30,344 bases of DNA, from positions 1 to 30,344 of the IMG/VR virus record IMGVR_UViG_3300017605_000843. One strand, 5' to 3'. Made by a program: the position numbers and the translations under genes. Under the pieces are notes generated by a model. That model saw only the letters and a program-made list of their open reading frames with translations. It was not told where the DNA came from and did not search any database. Origin of the DNA: a virus. Positions 5,084-27,404 of this stretch are shown piece by piece. The first letter of the stretch is position 1, and each line of letters opens with the position of its first letter.

Positions 5084-6553
5084 CTAGGCCCGGAGCCAGA
5101 CGGCGCGGAATGAAGCCGAACAGGTTTGCGAAGACCCGGTTTGCTGTACGTAGATCACCGAGTACTGCACGCCGGAGGTGATCCGCACGATTCCGCAGTC
5201 ATGCGAGCAGTTGTTTGAGCTGTCGCCGAGAATCAGTGTTCCCGTGTCGTCAGGCTGCCGCATGCGGAACGCCTGCACATTCGAGCCGGACGGGCTTACC
5301 GGGTTCTTCACGGTCACCGAAAGATCCCACAGGCCGGAGCGGTTGAAGGTGATCACACCGTTGGTGACGGTCCCCATTCCGCCATCGGACAAGGTGATGT
5401 CGCCTGGGTTGACGGTGATCGTCGACCACGAGATGGATCTGGGAGTGTTGGTGGGGATGGACTGGCCGGTCATGGTCCACGCGCCCTCGTGCCTGTTGAC
5501 GGTGGTGCGGCCAGCGAACTGGGTCTCCCACGTGCTGCCCGTCCACCTCTTGAACAGCGAGTCGGACAGGTCATACACCAGCTGGTCTGTCGCGGGAGAT
5601 GTCACGACCGCAGTCGACGACACCGTGATGGCGACAGGTGCCCCCCACGAGGTGATGCCCTGCGCCGCGGCGATGGACGCCCCCGCCGACACGGCACCCG
5701 TCAGCGTGGATGCCCCATCCACTACCAGGGTCGAGTCGGTGTCCAGCGCGCCGCCCGCGTGAATGGGCCCCAGGATGGAGGCCGACAGGCCGGTCACCGA
5801 ACCGGAGGTGGTGAGGCTGCCGCCCGACACGGTGCCGCTGGCGGTGACGCCGCCGGTCACGCTGGCCCCACCTGACAGGGTGGCGGCACCGGTCACGCCC
5901 AGCGTGCCGCCCACCGTGGTGTTGCCGGTGACTGACTCGTTGCCGTTGACGGTGAGCGCCGTCCCTGTGGACGGGGTGATGGCGACGTTGCCAGTGTTGG
6001 ACACGCGGAACCGGTCCACCCCGGACTGCTGGGCCAGGAACGCTGCCCTCGCCGCGTCGCCCGCCGTGTTCTTGTGCACGAACCCGTCACGCGCGGAAGC
6101 GTTGTCCGCCACCGACTCGTAAGAGGCCGTCACCCCAGCGGGCAGGGCATCCGAGTGCAGGGAGCGGTGCGCGCCCCGGAACGTCTTGTCCTGGAGGGTC
6201 TGGTTGCCGGTCGTGCCCACCACGGCCCCGGTGACGCCGTGCGCGGTGGTGGCGGCGTTGTGCGTCTCGCCCTCGTTGAAGTGCGAGGCCGGCACCACAT
6301 GCTCGAAGGTGACGCCCGCGCCGTGCGAGGTGGCGGCGGTGCCGCCCTGCCCGCGGGTGATGGTGAGCACCGACCCCGCCACGTTCGTGACCCTGACGAG
6401 TTCGGCGGAGGCCCCGCCCTTCTCGAACATGCCCCAATACGGGGCGTCGGGGAAGCCGGTGTAGGCGGCAACCGTGAAGGTCAAGTCGGCGGGCCCGACC
6501 AGTGCGGCAGTGGTGGCCACGCTGGCGGTGTTCACATAGTTCTCGCCACTCAT
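5084..6553 (-). CDS. Tail fibre / receptor-binding-type protein
   Basis: A 489-aa protein. Its N-terminus (LTFTVAAYTGFPDAPYWGMF, then ITRGQGGTAATSHGAG) resembles the virion-attachment domain of many actinophage fibres. The middle (about 195-290) is a Gly/Ser/Thr/Val repeat region (TVGGTLGVTGAATLSGGASV) typical of trimeric beta-helical stalks. The C-terminal 145 residues (from about NRHEGAWTMTGQ to the end) look like a C1q/TNF-type jelly-roll head with aromatic and Gly positions. It probably contacts the host surface. The ATG overlaps the stop of the preceding gene (ATGA). Confidence 0.75.
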   Translation of the reverse strand: MSGENYVNTASVATTAALVGPADLTFTVAAYTGFPDAPYWGMFEKGGASAELVRVTNVAGSVLTITRGQGGTAATSHGAGVTFEHVVPASHFNEGETHNAATTAHGVTGAVVGTTGNQTLQDKTFRGAHRSLHSDALPAGVTASYESVADNASARDGFVHKNTAGDAARAAFLAQQSGVDRFRVSNTGNVAITPSTGTALTVNGNESVTGNTTVGGTLGVTGAATLSGGASVTGGVTASGTVSGGSLTTSGSVTGLSASILGPIHAGGALDTDSTLVVDGASTLTGAVSAGASIAAAQGITSWGAPVAITVSSTAVVTSPATDQLVYDLSDSLFKRWTGSTWETQFAGRTTVNRHEGAWTMTGQSIPTNTPRSISWSTITVNPGDITLSDGGMGTVTNGVITFNRSGLWDLSVTVKNPVSPSGSNVQAFRMRQPDDTGTLILGDSSNNCSHDCGIVRITSGVQYSVIYVQQTGSSQTCSASFRAVWLRA

Positions 6554-7458
6554 GAGGCCAGCTCCTTGTGGGGGCGGACCGGCCAGCGGTCCAGCAACTT
6601 GCGGCGCTCAACCTCAAGGCGCGTCGCGAACAACTCCTGGAAGCGGCGGCTGCTTGAGGTAGCCGACCAGCCCTGAAGGGCCCGTGCCCGCTCCCCCTGC
6701 TCCACCGAGGACTGCTGAGTCCTGGCCGCCTCCGGCGCCAGAATCAGACCGGCCTTCGCGTACAGGCCCGGCAGATCCGCTGCCGACGCCGGCAGGCCCG
6801 TGGATGCCCACGTGGCCGACAGGTCCGAAGGCTCCGGCACAGTGATGGCGGTGCGGTAGGTGACGCGCATCGTCACCCCCGACAGGCCTTGCGGCGGGAT
6901 GCGCAGGTACTTCTTGCCGTCCGTGTTGGTGGCGTCCAACGTCCAGACCTGGATGGGCCGGTGCTGCTGCGTCGGCCCCAAGTCTTCGAGCGTCACGTTC
7001 AGGATGGCTTCGGTGCCGGCAGGCATCTCGTAGTTGGACTGCTGCGGGGTCGTGGTGAACTCGGTCTCCGCGACGGCGAACAGGTCCTGGGAGATGGCGT
7101 GAATGCCTTCCACCAGTTTCCGCGCCACCTGGTAGCGCGGCCAGGTCGGGTTCACAACCACCCGCGTGTTGACGGCCACCGTGTCATTCGCGGTGGTGCC
7201 AGCCTGCGCCCTGAACCAGGGCGGGCAGGTGGTGGTGGAACCGTCCACGGCGTAGCGAGTGACGTGCACGATCTCGCCGGTCGCGAGTTCGAGGTGCGCA
7301 TTGTTGAGGTCGGTTACCAGGTCGGCGAGTTGTACGCCAACAATGGCGTTGGAGCCGTCGCGCGACCAGTCGACGAAGGTGCCCGTGACTTCGGGGCTGG
7401 AGCTGTAGTTGCGGAGGTCCCCAATGGTTTCCTCAGCCAGCTCATTGAGTGTCGTCAC
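6550..7458 (-). CDS. Putative head-to-tail adaptor / tail tubular protein A-like
   Basis: A 302-aa protein starting with GTG at 7458, which shares one base with the stop of the preceding gene. The N-terminus (MTTLNELAEETIGDLRN) and a helical segment (WPRYQVARKLVEGIHAISQDLFAV) combined with beta-rich parts are compatible with a ring-forming connector such as T7 gp11. Its C-terminal region (about 255-302) is charged and helical. Position between capsid genes and the fibre/nozzle genes agrees with a connector. No diagnostic motif was seen, so the assignment is tentative. Confidence 0.5.
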   Translation of the reverse strand: MTTLNELAEETIGDLRNYSSSPEVTGTFVDWSRDGSNAIVGVQLADLVTDLNNAHLELATGEIVHVTRYAVDGSTTTCPPWFRAQAGTTANDTVAVNTRVVVNPTWPRYQVARKLVEGIHAISQDLFAVAETEFTTTPQQSNYEMPAGTEAILNVTLEDLGPTQQHRPIQVWTLDATNTDGKKYLRIPPQGLSGVTMRVTYRTAITVPEPSDLSATWASTGLPASAADLPGLYAKAGLILAPEAARTQQSSVEQGERARALQGWSATSSSRRFQELFATRLEVERRKLLDRWPVRPHKELAS

Positions 7459-9130: not shown

Positions 9131-9400
9131 CTACACCTTCAGTAGCACGAATGTGAACCGCACGGGCCGGTCCGTCGCGGACGGATTCCGCACCACCGCC
9201 CGGAACACCTGCTGCCCGGAGGCGTTCAGCTGGAAGCCGAGACCCTGGAACTCCAGCACCGGATGGATGTCCGTGAACCCCCACGAGATCCCGGTCCAGC
9301 CAGAGGGTGAGGGGAACTCGAACTCCTGCGTGGTGTTGGCCGGGACGTTCTGCGGGCCGGTGTTCTTGTAGTCGAGTTCGGCAACGACAGGGATGTGCAC
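9131..9400 (-). CDS. Small beta-rich virion-module protein
   Basis: An 89-aa protein with a GTG start at 9400, one base from the stop of the Acb2-like gene. The sequence is mostly beta (VVAELDYKNTGPQNV, GWTGISWGFTDIHPVLEF, VRFTFVLLKV) and resembles small single-domain decoration or tail accessory proteins. It is embedded in the head-tail gene run with minimal spacing. No family recognised. Confidence 0.6.
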   Translation of the reverse strand: MHIPVVAELDYKNTGPQNVPANTTQEFEFPSPSGWTGISWGFTDIHPVLEFQGLGFQLNASGQQVFRAVVRNPSATDRPVRFTFVLLKV

Positions 9401-9622
9401 TCAGAACACATCCTCTGGCTTGGCGATAGACCTGACGAAGGCCATGAAGCCTTCCTGGAGGTGCGTCTTGGCGAGCGCCATCCAGCGCCTGTCGACGCCA
9501 TCGAGAGCGCCGATGCGGCGCCACAGTTCGCCCGCTTCACACTCCAGAGCCTTGATCTGATTGATTGCCGCAACGTCTTCATCGGGCAGCTTGCGGTAGC
9601 CGCTGATCGGCTGGTCGCTCAT
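9401..9622 (-). CDS. Acb2-like small protein, candidate anti-CBASS cyclic-nucleotide sponge
   Basis: A 73-aa protein, all helical. Three blocks agree with the Acb2/Vs.4 family as remembered: an N-terminal ISGYRKL followed by an acidic helix with N-x-IKALE, a central DRRWMALAKTHLQ, and the ending EGFMAFVRSIAKPED. Family members are short helical-hairpin proteins that assemble into oligomers and sequester cyclic di- and trinucleotides made by CBASS cyclases, blocking abortive defence. Here the gene lies between a head protein and a small beta-rich protein in the late operon, close after the capsid gene, with tight spacing, so it would be made together with capsid. The match is by pattern recognition only; a small structural chaperone is the alternative. 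Confidence 0.6.
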   Translation of the reverse strand: MSDQPISGYRKLPDEDVAAINQIKALECEAGELWRRIGALDGVDRRWMALAKTHLQEGFMAFVRSIAKPEDVF

Positions 9623-9630
9623 GGAATCCC

Positions 9631-10068
9631 TTACGTGATGCGAAGGAAGTTGGACACGGTGGCCGTCACATCCGAGCCGTCCGGGGTGATCGCCCAGTCG
9701 TGCTTGGTGAGCGGCACCAGCGTGCTGTCGGTACCGGTCGTGGTGTCCGGGTCGTAGGCGATCAGCAGAGCGCCGATCGCGTTGCCAGTCAGGCCAGTCC
9801 AGGTCTGGTCCGCGATGTCGATGTCCACCCGATCGTTGGTGTCATCGACCGTGACCGTCACCGAAGTGACCGTCTTGCGCCCGGCCGTAGTCTGCTCGTT
9901 GGTGGTGCCGGCGAGTAGGGCCGACACGTCGTCGTAGTCCTTGAGGGTGGCGTCGGTCTCCAGGCCGGTCGCCTCCAGCGGGATGACGATGAGCGCGTCG
10001 TTGGCCGCGGGCAGTTCGGCGTAGTACTTGACCTTGCCCTTGGCGATGTTGAAAACCAGGTCCGCGAT
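9631..10068 (-). CDS. Conserved head-region protein with an apparent AUC start
   Basis: A 145-aa protein. In this frame there is no ATG, GTG or TTG between an upstream TGA and the GTG at 9927, yet the coding sequence clearly begins earlier: an ATC codon at 10068 is followed by ADLVFNIAKGKVKYYAELPA, which resembles the N-terminus MADLVFNIAKG of an actinophage gene family usually found just after the capsid gene. GGAGGG stands eight bases before the ATC, whereas GTG 9927 has no ribosome site and would remove 47 residues. The remainder (LEATDLKD-type segment, then DDTNDRVDIDIADQTWTGL and VPLTKHDWAITPDGSDVTA) is beta-rich and suggests a capsid decoration or head protein. The start could also reflect a single-base change from ATG. 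Confidence 0.75.
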   Translation of the reverse strand: MADLVFNIAKGKVKYYAELPAANDALIVIPLEATGLETDATLKDYDDVSALLAGTTNEQTTAGRKTVTSVTVTVDDTNDRVDIDIADQTWTGLTGNAIGALLIAYDPDTTTGTDSTLVPLTKHDWAITPDGSDVTATVSNFLRIT

Positions 10069-10082
10069 CTCTACGGCCCTCC

Positions 10083-10523
10083 CTAAGCGCCGCGACGGTT
10101 CAGGTCGCGGATCTGAGATACGTACTCACGCCTCGCCGCCAATTCGGCGACGGGCAGAGTCTTAGTTGTCCAGGTCTTTGTGCGACCACGGAACTCGATG
10201 ACCAACTTCGCCTGTTCTTGCTTCAGCTTGAGATAGGGAAGAATGGCCCGACACACGTCTTCAGCTCGACCGCCCGAGATTCGCCAGTGGGTAGCCGGCT
10301 TGTGGCCTTGCCGCCGCGGCGGATACGTGTTGATCGTTCCGCCGAACATCTGGGCGAACCAGGCAGGAATCACCGGGTCGGTCATCACGACGGCGATGTA
10401 GGCGCGAATGGTTGGCGACTTGCGCCGTTTGCCGTCCGCTTTCACCTCGGTGATCCCGATGGTGCCCTCGCCGTCCATGATTCCTGCGGCGTATGCCAGG
10501 TCCACCGGATCGAAATCGGCCAT
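10083..10523 (-). CDS. LAGLIDADG homing endonuclease, single motif, free-standing
   Basis: A 146-aa protein starting at ATG 10523. Residues 9-20 (LAYAAGIMDGEG) are a LAGLIDADG helix with acidic residues Asp17 and Glu19 in the catalytic position. The rest (AYIAVVMTDPVIPAWFAQMF, then THWRISGGRAEDVCRAILPYL, KQEQAKLVIEF) follows the beta-beta-alpha pattern of single-motif enzymes that work as homodimers. It lies between the capsid gene and the gene that normally follows it, so it is a mobile gene inserted into the late operon rather than part of an intein or visible intron. Its stop is 14 bases before the AUC start of the next gene. Confidence 0.85.
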   Translation of the reverse strand: MADFDPVDLAYAAGIMDGEGTIGITEVKADGKRRKSPTIRAYIAVVMTDPVIPAWFAQMFGGTINTYPPRRQGHKPATHWRISGGRAEDVCRAILPYLKLKQEQAKLVIEFRGRTKTWTTKTLPVAELAARREYVSQIRDLNRRGA

Positions 10524-10603: not shown

Positions 10604-11584
10604 CTACGCTTTGCCGTCGACCGCGGGGACGGTGCCCGCGTAGAAGGCGGTCTCGATGGTGGAGCTGGACTTGAGCAGCTGGATCGCGTTCTCTCGGAAC
10701 CGCGACACACCCAGCAGCGCGTACCAGCCCACGCGGTAGAACCGCTTCAGTGCGTCGATCGGGTCCGCGACCACGATCCGCACATCGTCGCCGACAGCCT
10801 CGAAGAGGGCTTCCTTGTCGATGAAGTACGACGTGTACACGTCGTTGGTGCCGGCGACCACCGTGCACTTGGAGTTCTCGATGAACCGGACGCCCATGTA
10901 GTCGCCCAGCACCCGGTTGTAGATGGCGCTGGTGTCGACCTGCTCGTGCGGCTGCTTCCAGGTGTTGGTGCCCGACTCGGTGAACAGGTCGTGCGCAACG
11001 TCCGGGTGGATGACGCACGCGGACTTGTCGCCGAAGCGCGGTTCGGCGTTGCGGCGCCGAAGCAGCGTCTTCATGGTGGTGACACCAGTCGACGTGATCT
11101 TGGTGGTGGACGCGGCAGTCGGGTTCGCCAGCTGCGGGCCACCCGCCGCCATGTAGGCGACGTTCGAGGCACCATCCAGAACGGCGCGGTAAACCGCGTC
11201 GATGGAGCGGGTCGCGTTGAGACCCATCTCCATGCCGATCTCGCCGGCAGCGGCCTGCGACCAGTCGGTCTTACGCAGCAAGTGCGTGTCGACCATCGCG
11301 TTGCCGTACTCGGCCATGGTCACGTTGAACTGGCGGTCCGCGGGCGCGGCAACCGAGTCGACATCCAGGGACTCGGACAGCGGCGTGGTCGCCAGGGCCA
11401 GCTCACCACGGATCGTCTTGGTGACGACCTTGCCGGGGTAGGACTGGCGCTCCGGACGGGAGTCGGTGAACGCGCGGAAGATGGGTTCCTCGACGAGGTA
11501 CTTGGCGACCTCAAGGTCAAGGGCCGTGGCGACACGAGTCGTCCACGAGGTAGTGGTGTTGAGTGTTCCACCGGGGACAGGCAT
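10604..11584 (-). CDS. Major capsid protein
   Basis: A 326-aa protein beginning MPVPGGTLNTTTSW, with AAGGAAG ahead of the ATG. Length, an early helix (ALDLEVAKYLVEEPIFRAF), conserved-looking strand and loop segments (SYPGKVVTKTIRGELALATT, ADRQFNVTMAEYGNAM) and the C-terminal DDVRIVVADPIDALKRFYRV, YALLGVSRFRENAIQLLKSS fit an HK97-fold capsid protein of the N4 gp56-like group. It follows the scaffold gene and is followed by a strong hairpin, the usual arrangement for the most abundant virion protein. The capsid call is firm; the subfamily is an inference. Confidence 0.88.
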   Translation of the reverse strand: MPVPGGTLNTTTSWTTRVATALDLEVAKYLVEEPIFRAFTDSRPERQSYPGKVVTKTIRGELALATTPLSESLDVDSVAAPADRQFNVTMAEYGNAMVDTHLLRKTDWSQAAAGEIGMEMGLNATRSIDAVYRAVLDGASNVAYMAAGGPQLANPTAASTTKITSTGVTTMKTLLRRRNAEPRFGDKSACVIHPDVAHDLFTESGTNTWKQPHEQVDTSAIYNRVLGDYMGVRFIENSKCTVVAGTNDVYTSYFIDKEALFEAVGDDVRIVVADPIDALKRFYRVGWYALLGVSRFRENAIQLLKSSSTIETAFYAGTVPAVDGKA

Positions 11585-12290: not shown

Positions 12291-12298
12291 AAAGGGAG

Positions 12299-12372
12299 TG
12301 GTGAGGGCAGGATTCGAACCTGCATATGACCCAGGCTTTGGGCCTGGCGCCTCTCCTGTCGGCTGCATCACC
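12299..12372 (-). tRNA. tRNA or degenerate tRNA-like element (anticodon position reads CAA)
   Basis: A 74-base minus-strand cloverleaf can be drawn: acceptor GGTGATG/CCTCACC with one mismatch, D arm GCC-GACAGGAGA-GGC containing the invariant GG, a CCAGG-CCCAAAG-CCTGG arm in the anticodon place, a 7-base variable loop, and a perfect T arm GCAGG-TTCGAAT-CCTGC. The T and D arms are convincing. Oddities are C at position 8, C instead of U33, a Watson-Crick 32-38 pair, and a short variable loop although CAA would mean leucine. A perfect copy of the acceptor 5' strand (GGTGAGG) occurs 28 bases upstream (12400-12394), just past which is another hairpin (CCGGGA/TCCCGG, 12399-12417). It may be a decayed tRNA, or a tRNA-like structure used for RNA processing. 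Confidence 0.55.
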
Positions 12373-23277: not shown

Positions 23278-25119
23278 CTATGCACCCACCGCTCTACGAC
23301 GTGACACGCTTGCTTCCATCTGCGCCGGACCCTGCCCGCGCAGACGCGACAACAGGCCCTGAATGGCCGGCATACCGCCCGGTGGGCCACCAGCCTGGCC
23401 GTACGCCACGCCCTCGGTCAGCCCGTTCTCGCGCACCCCAGGTGGTAGCTCCGGCCCGCCAGGACCGGCGGGCCCCTCCGGGCCCATACCCTGCTCCGGG
23501 ATAGCACCCTCGGGAACCTCTGGCTCCTCCGGCTCGGGCGGCGCGAACGCCTCCAAGGCGGCATCCTCGATGGACTTGCCCTTCTTGCGGAGCTGGATCA
23601 GCTTCGCCACCGCGGTCAACACCTGCCGCGGGTCCTGGCCCTGCATCACCATCGGACCGATAGCCTGCTCCAGGCCCATCAGGCCCTGCCTCAGCGCCGA
23701 GGAGAGGCCCTCGGCGTCCACCTGCCGCTGCTCCTCTTCAGGATCGAGGTCGAACGGGAGCTGCCTGCGGGTGGTATCGCGGCTGATCAGCTCGTCACCG
23801 CGCAGCTGAAGCAGCGCAACCAGCGCCTGCGCCGGGGTCTGGCCGGACGCGAACCCGTAGGTCACCTTGCAGGAGTAGCTGTCGCCGATGTCCTTCACGG
23901 GCGCGTAGGTGATCTCGAACGGCTTGCCGGTCAACACGCCCGTGATCTTCTTCTGGACGTTCGGCCACAGGGCCACATCCAGGGTGAAGCACAGCTCGGT
24001 GGCCTCCTCCAGCGCCCGGCCAATGACCGTCTGCATGGTCTTGACCTGGGTGTTGAGCGTCCCCGCCAGGGCCTCCACACCCTTGCCGGTGATGATGTTC
24101 CCGGAGATGCCCCCGGAGCGGGCCTCCGGGTAGCGGGAGCCCTCCTTCACCGCCCGATCAAGCTGCTCCGCCACCGCGAACACGTCATCAGGGATATCGA
24201 GCCTGACGCGCCCGATGGACTGCGCCCCGTTCTGGGAGCGGATCACCGAGTTCGGGCCATACGACATCTCGGTGACGTCATCCGGCACCGCGATCGGGGC
24301 GTTGATCGCCTTATCGGCGGCGTCCAGCTGGTACTGGGTGATGATGTGCTTCGCCAACATCGGGAACACGGCGTCGTCGTACTGCCCGCGGGGCGTGTCC
24401 TCCTGGTCCGGCCGCTCCGCGATAGCCACCAGCGTCCGACCCAGGTTGTGCCGCCACTGGGCCAGCACGTGATACCCGCAATCGGGCAGATACACCACGT
24501 TCTGGTCGCGGTCCCGGTAGTCCACCAGCTGCACGGTCTCGGAAGCCGACCGCTTGCGCCCGCCCTCGTATTCAATGAACGGTGCCGAGTCCGGGTACTT
24601 GGACACCAGGGTCAGCACATCAACGTAGCTGACTTTCGCGTACCAGATGGTGCGCCGGAACCGGTCCTTGTAGTAGTAGGTGCCGAAGCTGGACTCCCAG
24701 CGGATACGCGGGCACTTTTCCTGCCAGTCCGGGTCCACCAGGTACACGCCGAACGCATACGACATGGCAGCGTCCGAGAAGTCGATGTTCTGGACCGCCA
24801 GGTCCGACTTGTCCCAGTAGTAGGACGCCACCTTGTTCTTCTTGCCGGCACGAGCCACATCGGCGGCGCTGGACATGTTGCCGGAGGCGCACGACAGGGA
24901 CGGCAGCGGGGCAATCAGCTCCGCCGTGTCCCTGGCCGCGTTGTCAATGGCATTCGCGATAGCCATCTGCGGCATGGAGTCGGCGAAATGCCCGGGGAAT
25001 TCCTCGTGCAGCTTGCCGCGCCTGACGAGGCGGACCAGGTGCGAGTCCCGGTCGCGCTGCTGGGAGCGCATGCGCATGGCCTCCACGTGCGTGTGGAGGC
25101 GCTGGATTTCGTCTGTCAT
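23278..25119 (-). CDS. Portal protein
   Basis: A 613-aa protein directly following terminase, with its ATG overlapping the terminase... coding end by 4 bp (ATGA). The mixed alpha/beta body (DNAARDTAELIAPLPSLSCA, ESSFGTYYYKDRFRRTIWYA, TEMSYGPNSVIRSQNGAQS) and the segment with repeated long helices near 330-400 (GVEALAGTLNTQVKTMQTVI) fit a portal ring subunit with the stem and clip regions. The last 100 residues are Pro/Gly-rich and probably disordered. Size is within the usual range for short-tailed phage portals. The dodecameric ring forms the DNA gate at one capsid vertex. Confidence 0.82.
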   Translation of the reverse strand: MTDEIQRLHTHVEAMRMRSQQRDRDSHLVRLVRRGKLHEEFPGHFADSMPQMAIANAIDNAARDTAELIAPLPSLSCASGNMSSAADVARAGKKNKVASYYWDKSDLAVQNIDFSDAAMSYAFGVYLVDPDWQEKCPRIRWESSFGTYYYKDRFRRTIWYAKVSYVDVLTLVSKYPDSAPFIEYEGGRKRSASETVQLVDYRDRDQNVVYLPDCGYHVLAQWRHNLGRTLVAIAERPDQEDTPRGQYDDAVFPMLAKHIITQYQLDAADKAINAPIAVPDDVTEMSYGPNSVIRSQNGAQSIGRVRLDIPDDVFAVAEQLDRAVKEGSRYPEARSGGISGNIITGKGVEALAGTLNTQVKTMQTVIGRALEEATELCFTLDVALWPNVQKKITGVLTGKPFEITYAPVKDIGDSYSCKVTYGFASGQTPAQALVALLQLRGDELISRDTTRRQLPFDLDPEEEQRQVDAEGLSSALRQGLMGLEQAIGPMVMQGQDPRQVLTAVAKLIQLRKKGKSIEDAALEAFAPPEPEEPEVPEGAIPEQGMGPEGPAGPGGPELPPGVRENGLTEGVAYGQAGGPPGGMPAIQGLLSRLRGQGPAQMEASVSRRRAVGA

Positions 25120-27107
25120 GCCGACCCCAGTACGTCACGCCACTGGTATGGCTCAGGCTCTCTGGCGTGCCTGTTCTGACTGGCCATGATTGCCTCAAAT
25201 TGCTCTTGATGGCTGTCGAATCTAAACGTGCCGCGCTGCGCCATGGCGGCGCGAGAAACGAACCGGGACTCAAAGTGGGTTTGAGAACCCAACCCACCCC
25301 TCAGATATTGTCGCACACCCAATTCGGCGAACCAGAGCATCATCACCATGTCCTGGATCTGCTTCTTGTTCCCCGCCTCCCACGTCGTCAACTGCCCCTT
25401 CAACGTGTCGATATGGGGGCAGCGCCGCGGCGACGGCAAATCAATACGGCCGTCACCATCAGGGGCAGGCTCAGCGATACCGTGCCCCGGGGAAAGGGGC
25501 ACCATCTTGCCGTCAATCAACTGCACCGCCGCCAAGAACAACGGCTGGAGGGTGGCTTCCACCCCTTTGTCGGGGTCCCACTTGTTCTGCCGGGTCTCGT
25601 GCTCCACCAGCCGGCAGCCGTGGGCGGTCAGGAACTCCCGGATCTCGGGCAGCTGAGTGATGAACTGCTGAACCGCGTTCTTCTCGATCCGCCACTCATT
25701 GATCCCGTACTTCAAGGTCCAGTCCTTGAGCCGCTGAATCGACTCGGCCGGGTAGACGCCCTTCTTCGTCCAGGCGTCCAGCACCCAACGGCGGGCCTTC
25801 AGCCCGTACTTCTTGTCGACCGCCACCACACCCATCGCGTTGAAGCCCGCACTGGACGCCGGGTCCCACGCGCCCACCTTGTAGAGGCCCTGCTGCCCCT
25901 CGCGCCGGTGCCCTGGCGCCATCGGGGTCATGGGCCCGTGGAAGCGGTACTTGGAGATGGAGGCGTTGACCGCCTCAGCCGGGAACGTGGCGTTGTCCGG
26001 CACGTCGTTCTGCTGGTAGATCAGCTCGAAATGCCGCGGGTTGGCGAACGCGGCCCGCTTCTTGCGGATCACCTTCGGGGCCATGCGCTCCGGCCACAAC
26101 ACCTGCCAGGTGTTCCAGTCTGTGGAGTGCTCGTTCTCCAGGATCGCGGGCTGGCTGAAGTAGGTGTAGGTCGGGTTGTCTTCCAGGTCCTTCGCCTCGT
26201 CGCGAAGGTAGCGGTACATGTCCACCGTGCCCACGCGGGTGCCCAGCACCACCAGCCTGCCGGGGCTCTCGCTCTCCGTGCCCGGCTCCAGGCGGGACGA
26301 GACCTCCTGCGCCACCCAGTTGGCGTGCGCCTCGTAGGAGGTGTAGTTGGTGAGGTCCTCGCAGTCATCGAGGATCACCCAGTCGGCGCGCGTGCCGTAA
26401 ATCTGGCCGCCGATGCCCAGGGCCTGGACGGTGGGGTCCTTCTCCTCCGGGTTCCGGCCCTTCACGTAGATCATGTCCTCGCGCCAGGCCAGGCCATCCG
26501 CCTTGTCGTCGGACCGCCAACCGCCCTCCGGCCCGAACGCGGCATGCATCTGCTCGTAGCGCGGGTGCGTGAGCCGCTGCTTGATGCCCAACAGGAACTG
26601 CTTCGCCAAGCGCTGCGTCTTGGAGACGATGATGATGCGGACTGACGGGTCACGGTTGATCAACCACGTTACGAAGTTCATCGTCCACGTGGCCGACTTG
26701 CCGTGGTTCGGCGGGAAGTTGAGGATCACCTGGTCGGTGCCCTCAGCACCCACCTGGTACTTCATCAGCGGGAAGCGTTGAACCTTCTCGCCGCCTTCCG
26801 TCACCCAGAAGTCGCGGGGCTCACGGCCCGACATGACGTCGAACGCCCGCAGCTGATGCAGCGGCAAAGGCTGGAACAAGTACTTGGCCGCGAACTCGGG
26901 GAAGTCCGGCACCACAGCCGCGGCCTTCTCGCCACGCTTCACCCGCTCCGCGATGGCGTCGGCACGCTTCTTGAAGTCGGGCTTCTTGCGCCAGTCCTTC
27001 CAGGTCTCCTCGGAGCGCCCCACCGAAGCCATGGCTTCGCGCACACCCATGCCGGCGGCGCGGCGCTGGAGCACCAGCTCCATAGCCTCTTGGGTGGGGA
27101 TCTTCAC
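25116..27107 (-). CDS. terL: Terminase large subunit
   Basis: The GTG at 27107 with AGGAG ahead is chosen; the frame is open further upstream but that part is non-coding in character. The 663-aa protein starts with an HTH-like helical segment (MELVLQRRAAGMGVREAMAS, 8-45). The ATPase has Walker A FPPNHGKSA (131-139), Walker B VILDDCED (244-251) and a coupling motif VVLGTR (286-291). The RNase H-like nuclease has acidic residues Asp415 in GAWDPA, Glu475 in WRIEKNA and probably Asp586 near the end of the domain. It packages DNA through the portal. No separate small subunit was seen upstream, so the N-terminal helices may help DNA recognition. Confidence 0.95.
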   Translation of the reverse strand: MKIPTQEAMELVLQRRAAGMGVREAMASVGRSEETWKDWRKKPDFKKRADAIAERVKRGEKAAAVVPDFPEFAAKYLFQPLPLHQLRAFDVMSGREPRDFWVTEGGEKVQRFPLMKYQVGAEGTDQVILNFPPNHGKSATWTMNFVTWLINRDPSVRIIIVSKTQRLAKQFLLGIKQRLTHPRYEQMHAAFGPEGGWRSDDKADGLAWREDMIYVKGRNPEEKDPTVQALGIGGQIYGTRADWVILDDCEDLTNYTSYEAHANWVAQEVSSRLEPGTESESPGRLVVLGTRVGTVDMYRYLRDEAKDLEDNPTYTYFSQPAILENEHSTDWNTWQVLWPERMAPKVIRKKRAAFANPRHFELIYQQNDVPDNATFPAEAVNASISKYRFHGPMTPMAPGHRREGQQGLYKVGAWDPASSAGFNAMGVVAVDKKYGLKARRWVLDAWTKKGVYPAESIQRLKDWTLKYGINEWRIEKNAVQQFITQLPEIREFLTAHGCRLVEHETRQNKWDPDKGVEATLQPLFLAAVQLIDGKMVPLSPGHGIAEPAPDGDGRIDLPSPRRCPHIDTLKGQLTTWEAGNKKQIQDMVMMLWFAELGVRQYLRGGLGSQTHFESRFVSRAAMAQRGTFRFDSHQEQFEAIMASQNRHAREPEPYQWRDVLGSA

Positions 27108-27404
27108 GGGACTCCTGAACGTGATGAAAGCGCATACACGCAATCCGGCGTGTGAGGTGTTAGTCCGGCACCAGGAAAAGGGTAGAGAAAGGGCCATCAG
27201 TGACTGGCTGACCCAGCAGCGCGCTCTTGGATGAGCGCTGACCGGCACGAGCGGGAGCGAGTGCTGGTGCTCAAGCGCCGGGCTTGTAGGCCCGGCTTGC
27301 AGCAAGACAAACTGGACCCACAGGAATAGTAGCAACCCCAAAAGAGGGTCCTCTGACCTGCGGCTTTCTAGTAGGTGACCTCTATCACACGTGCGGTAGC
27401 GTAG
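27108..27404 (-). other. Non-coding stretch with tandem hairpins upstream of terL
   Basis: No gene is visible in these 297 bp. CAGCGC...GCGCTG with inner GCTC/GAGC pairs (27217-27240) and GCCGGGC-TTGTAG-GCCCGGC (27277-27296) are strong hairpins. The stretch separates three small genes from terL, so it may hold a processing site, a weak terminator or an internal promoter; no clear promoter was found. Confidence 0.45.

Follow-up and report, generated by a model that had tools for sequence, protein, structure and literature searches.

The stretch of DNA analysed here, called the window throughout, is a 30,344-base IMG/VR fragment with a GC content of about 66%. Its features are collected in Table 1, including an acb2-like open reading frame whose translation is MSDQPISGYRKLPDEDVAAINQIKALECEAGELWRRIGALDGVDRRWMALAKTHLQEGFMAFVRSIAKPEDVF.

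Table 1. Genes and other features of the window, with their positions and strands.
Feature	Position	Strand	Remarks
SU10-adaptor-like virion gene	6550..7458	-	just below Pfam cut-off; same block as acb2
89-aa late gene, directly downstream of acb2	9131..9400	-	conserved: L096 79%, L182 59%
acb2-like gene	9401..9622	-	73 aa, ATG start; PF24729 Acb2_Tad1_hairpin; predicted cyclic-oligonucleotide sponge
145-aa late gene, directly upstream of acb2	9631..10068	-	phrog_26662; first codon apparently ATC
free-standing endonuclease gene	10083..10523	-	phrog_5046 'HNH endonuclease'; second insertion
major capsid protein	10604..11584	-	phrog_1357; 35% to Streptomyces phage MCP
single tRNA-Leu (caa)	12298-12372	-	shortly upstream of capsid gene
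portal protein	23278..25119	-	
terminase large subunit	25116..27341	-	36-39% to Streptomyces Beephvirinae-type phages

A reading of this DNA from its letters alone (the sequence-only reading) had placed the gene inside the virion operon, just after capsid genes. The late location was borne out by the capsid, adaptor-like and late-gene neighbours on the same strand, and the TGA stop of acb2 abuts the GTG start of the 89-aa gene. The capsid gene lies upstream, and the endonuclease and 145-aa genes separate it from acb2; therefore, the description is right to within two genes. Two of these neighbours have peculiarities of their own. The 145-aa gene appears to start with ATC (window 10066-10068; IADLVFNIAKGK...) behind a GGAGG-like ribosome site, both here and in a related phage (L096:7055), and its homologues start with ATG or GTG, apart from one set with ATT (L253-L255, L257). 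The endonuclease has a LAGLIDADG-like GIMDGEG motif, seen by eye, and is missing in the same related phage (522 bp vs 60 bp).

The capsid protein has Streptomyces phages as its nearest deposited phages, as does the terminase, and the primase of a sister contig matches almost exclusively actinophages. The actinophage affinity assumed by the sequence-only reading is thus supported, and these similarities suggest that the host of the window phage is likely actinobacterial. No capsid relatives in prophages that could assign a host were found among the genome contigs searched. Streptomyces phage Kumquat has a cluster of about 20 tRNA genes where the window has its single tRNA-Leu.

We found that the 73-aa frame is a genuine gene and a member of the Acb2/Tad1-hairpin family. 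All four motifs that had been quoted for it (ISGYR, NxIKALE, RWxALAKTHLQ and a fourth) occur in its translation. The proposed HMM check against the hairpin family gave PF24729 as the sole Pfam family matched (E 5.3e-17; 62.2 bits against a cut-off of 27 bits; profile positions 1-58 of 58), and the same search gave no match of the window protein to the Tad2 family PF11195. In the PDB, phmmer matched Acb2 of Pseudomonas phages (8h2j/8ixz, E about 1.5e-7) and, weakly, T4 Vs.4 (E 0.07). A family HMM run on the window matched the acb2 frame alone and gave 0 matches in 100 codon-shuffled windows, which serves as a sanity check only, the query being inside the model. PADLOC, with the defence models of its 2023 library, gave no match. 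Membership, as claimed from the motifs, is therefore backed by Pfam, by the sequence match to solved Acb2 proteins and by the predicted fold. The latter is an AlphaFold2 monomer (pLDDT 86.7; 25 input sequences, from the window and viral contigs) with two helices, 14-38 and 45-67, that is, a single-domain helical hairpin of the Acb2/Vs.4 type. The structural match that had been sought was found with Foldseek: the best nine PDB entries were all Acb2 or Vs.4 (probability 1.00, TMq 0.72-0.78), and the next fold was Rop (E 2.4). Owing to the shortness of this two-helix hairpin, the E-values of the nine were no better than about 1e-3.

T4 Vs.4 is a hexamer that binds three cGAMP molecules with a Kd of about 30 nM and contacts them through Y8, H11, K23, R79 and F82 (Jenson et al., PMC10097602). 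Y8A has been used as a binding-deficient mutant, and T68M reduces binding (PMC12657230). In our alignments, Y8, K23 and R79 are retained in the window protein as Y9, K24 and R64, and the equivalent of T68 is T53. The positions of H11 and F82 are occupied by L12 and A67, the residues of Pseudomonas Acb2. The alignment numbering is also consistent with Y11, K26 and R67 of that protein, which we take to be its ligand residues. Besides, T53, R64 and P69 are invariant in both family alignments. Since Y9, K24, R64 and T53 are kept, the ligand pocket looks intact, and the protein would presumably bind a nucleotide. The Pfam match, the predicted fold and the retained Tyr, Lys and Arg together make a cyclic-nucleotide sponge the likely function of the window protein.

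Search with the capsid protein revealed two sister contigs, L095 (phage G001) and L096 (phage G002), whose capsid proteins are 87% and 85% identical to that of the window and which are colinear with it through the head block; search with the neighbouring genes added a third sister, G006 (contigs L182/L183). The 145-aa and 89-aa genes of the window have a single gene, acb2, between them. In L096, the TAA of the 145-aa gene is followed after 8 nt by the GTG of the 89-aa gene, and in L182 the two genes overlap as TAGTG, with acb2 absent between them in both. In L095 the region is replaced, and other genes occupy the acb2 site. By this comparison, the acb2 gene of the window is a clean one-gene insertion between two late genes. 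It is not a conserved virion component, its site being empty in two sister contigs and its region replaced in the third.

The sisters keep their sponge genes elsewhere. The only acb2 gene of G001 (73% identical) is about 23 kb distant from the capsid gene. A lysin gene overlaps it with its end, and genes for endonuclease VII, primase and polymerase-exonuclease come after it. Similarly, the single acb2 of G006 (44% identical) lies in the order DnaB helicase, amidase lysin, acb2, endonuclease VII, primase. No acb2 was found in G002 within 47.5 kb, and its corresponding slot, flanked by an amidase-like gene and endonuclease VII, encodes a Tad2-like protein of 75 aa (PF11195, 82.1 bits, cut-off 25 bits). 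The founding members of Tad2 are anti-Thoeris sponges (PMC12043709). The Tad2-like gene lies at L264:15030-15257 (-), and the sister acb2 genes used as comparators lie at L002:6001-6222 and L263:6442-6669. In the more distant Kumquat, helicase and resolvase are adjacent, with nothing in between. With acb2 in two sisters and a Tad2-like gene at the matching place in the third, the slot therefore seems to accept different sponge genes, and the comparison of gene orders makes it clear that a sponge gene has moved between sites in these phages. The window phage carries acb2 in its virion operon instead of, or as well as, a copy in this slot; the 30-kb window ends before the slot.

The origin of the gene was approached through phylogeny and codon use. 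In a tree of 153 rows and 70 columns, the window protein pairs with that of L002, and both fall with L003/L004 inside a 27-row clade (support 100/98) whose remaining members come from Pseudomonas genomes and Pseudomonas phages. This placement is one well-supported fork, and the deep branches are unresolved because there are only 70 columns. The window protein is 57–62% identical to its nearest Pseudomonas homologues, from a prophage and a phage. The simplest reading of this modest tree evidence would be a transfer, in either direction, between phages of different phyla. The GC3 of acb2 (0.784) is below that of the resident late genes (0.865-0.904), a contrast of about 2.5 standard errors over 74 codons, and its codon use in the window may be called foreign-looking. 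The still lower GC3 of the endonuclease gene (0.743) suggests that this gene arrived recently. Between the window acb2 and the 73%-identical L002, dN was about 0.22 and dS about 1.04, giving a dN/dS of about 0.21 for this one pair, with dS near saturation. This ratio argues for a protein that is maintained, and acb2 thus appears to be under purifying selection.

Positions of acb2 in other phages were also compared. It lies two genes past the capsid gene in Leptolyngbya phage Lsp-JY19, between a head-tail adaptor gene and protease/capsid genes in Acinetobacter phage Ab9, immediately before the tail sheath in Vibrio phage 1.246.O, immediately before the portal in Microcystis phage Mwe-JY05 and between terminase and portal in a Kutzneria (Actinomycetota) prophage. 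In Kutzneria viridogrisea, the acb2-like frame of the prophage (L131:5836-6207, +) would be extended at its N terminus by about 50 residues, depending on the start codon. Further acb2 genes are in lysis/terminase or replication regions. A PHROG tally of the 150 nearest ORFs, sampled from about 150 acb2 loci, showed head-tail adaptor, portal, head-protease and minor-head families as recurrent neighbours. A link of acb2 with neighbouring HNH or homing endonucleases, which would point to transfer by co-conversion, was rejected as a general rule: endonuclease genes do occur close to acb2 in the window as well as in Pseudomonas phages and Aeromonas phage MQM1, but the top 25 PHROGs of this tally included no HNH family. 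In annotated phage records, acb2 is labelled hypothetical or misnamed, and we found no paper on the late-operon pattern among open-licence literature. The sequence-only reading had held that an actinophage late-gene location would extend what is known of these proteins. This holds to a limited extent: Acb2 has already been annotated in actinophages (PMC13348362, PMC11953737), and acb2 genes in head operons occur in deposited phages as well as in the Kutzneria prophage.

We consider, with a probability of about 0.85, that the window encodes an Acb2-type sponge on an autonomous mobile cassette within the virion operon, and that its location reflects gain or relocation and not a tie to the capsid. 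The protein would be a minimal sponge, a two-helix hairpin assembling as a hexamer, which would tightly bind the cyclic di- and/or trinucleotides of CBASS-type cyclases and so leave the effectors inactive. The cassette, about 0.22 kb, would be an autonomous counter-defence unit, cleanly inserted between two genes of the virion operon; it would presumably be translated along with these, and its expression would then be late. A sponge of this kind should act in trans on a diffusible nucleotide, so that genomic position would matter through timing only. A late-timing advantage of the present position is possible.

Three other explanations were weighed. The first, which we regard as unlikely though worth keeping in mind, is that the fold serves as a sponge for another signal, such as the cyclic trinucleotides of type III CRISPR or CBASS or a Thoeris-type molecule, with little binding of cGAMP. 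Acb2 homologues indeed do not all accept the same ligands, and their site for trinucleotides is a distinct one (PMC12043709). In addition, the window protein lacks H11 and F82 of T4, and the slot that contains acb2 in other sisters encodes a Tad2-like protein in one. However, the Tyr, Lys and Arg of the dinucleotide pocket are all present, and the extra beta domain of Tad1 is missing.

The second is that selection keeps acb2 after the capsid gene for late co-expression at the place and time at which capsid assembly is detected by a CBASS sensor; the sequence-only reading had likewise placed the sponge where the signal from the capsid arises. Whether capsid is a trigger of CBASS, as that reading took for granted, is unsettled: capsid mutations help acb2-deleted phage to evade CBASS, but wild-type major capsid protein alone induced no CBASS toxicity, according to a review (PMC10419184). 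That many phages have acb2-like genes next to those for portal, head maturation protease, adaptor and capsid would also fit such selection. In contrast, the sisters, with 85-91% identical capsid or upstream-neighbour proteins, lack acb2 at this place and carry it about 23-27 kb away in the lysin/replication cassette, or not at all; other relatives have it in the replication region; and none of the 80 fetched loci of the 145-aa neighbour family has acb2 nearby (flanks up to 3 kb). Because of the empty sites and the alternative positions in sisters, we disfavour a role for capsid proximity and judge this explanation improbable. The third, that the hairpin was repurposed as a virion or assembly accessory (a decoration protein or connector chaperone) and lost nucleotide binding, would suit a gene embedded between two conserved late genes with its stop abutting the next start, but is very improbable given that both neighbours occur without acb2 in two sister contigs, the residues for the ligand are retained and the closest homologue (73%) is encoded away from the virion operon. 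The position of acb2 in the window is most likely due to a mobile cassette that was gained or relocated.

These observations add an Acb2 to the actinophages, in a lineage with affinity to Streptomyces phages, and the comparison of sisters shows that sponge genes shift between lysis/replication and late modules. As acb2 and Tad2-like genes, which belong to different sponge families, were found at the same slot, the site between lysin and endonuclease VII is a place to seek unknown counter-defence genes of actinophages. It may tentatively be proposed that this group of actinophages handles sponges as exchangeable cassettes, with the slot swapping acb2 and Tad2-like genes and the window copy perhaps retimed to late expression. 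If true, sponge swaps at one slot would mirror the signalling defences used by the hosts. In addition, the two locations of acb2 raise a testable question, namely, at which stage of infection the sponge is needed.

With regard to known systems, Acb2 of Pseudomonas phages (8h2j, 8h2x, 8ixz) and its prophage homologues are the closest, sharing the fold, the Y/K/R and T residues and a well-supported tree clade with the window protein. The latter differs in its length (73 aa) and shorter inter-helix loop, and its gene, for which sponge activity is predicted, is in a late operon on an actinophage-type genome. T4 Vs.4 (7uq2) has family, fold and the equivalents of Y8, K23, R79 and T68 in common with it, whereas identity is very low, H11 and F82 are not retained and the genomic setting is another. 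Tad1 shares the two-helix hairpin of PF24729; its N-terminal beta-sheet domain, which precedes the hairpin (PMC12043709), is missing from the predicted monomer, which consists of two helices only. Microbacterium phage Statler (gp57) and the Mycobacterium cluster E phages Xandras (gp101) and BigBubba (gp102) likewise have Acb2 in phages of Actinobacteria (PMC13348362, PMC11953737), and differ in that, going by the gene numbers of their annotation, acb2 is not part of the structural block. Late-operon acb2 is not new, and the window protein is of a known type; the unusual part is the location of its gene.
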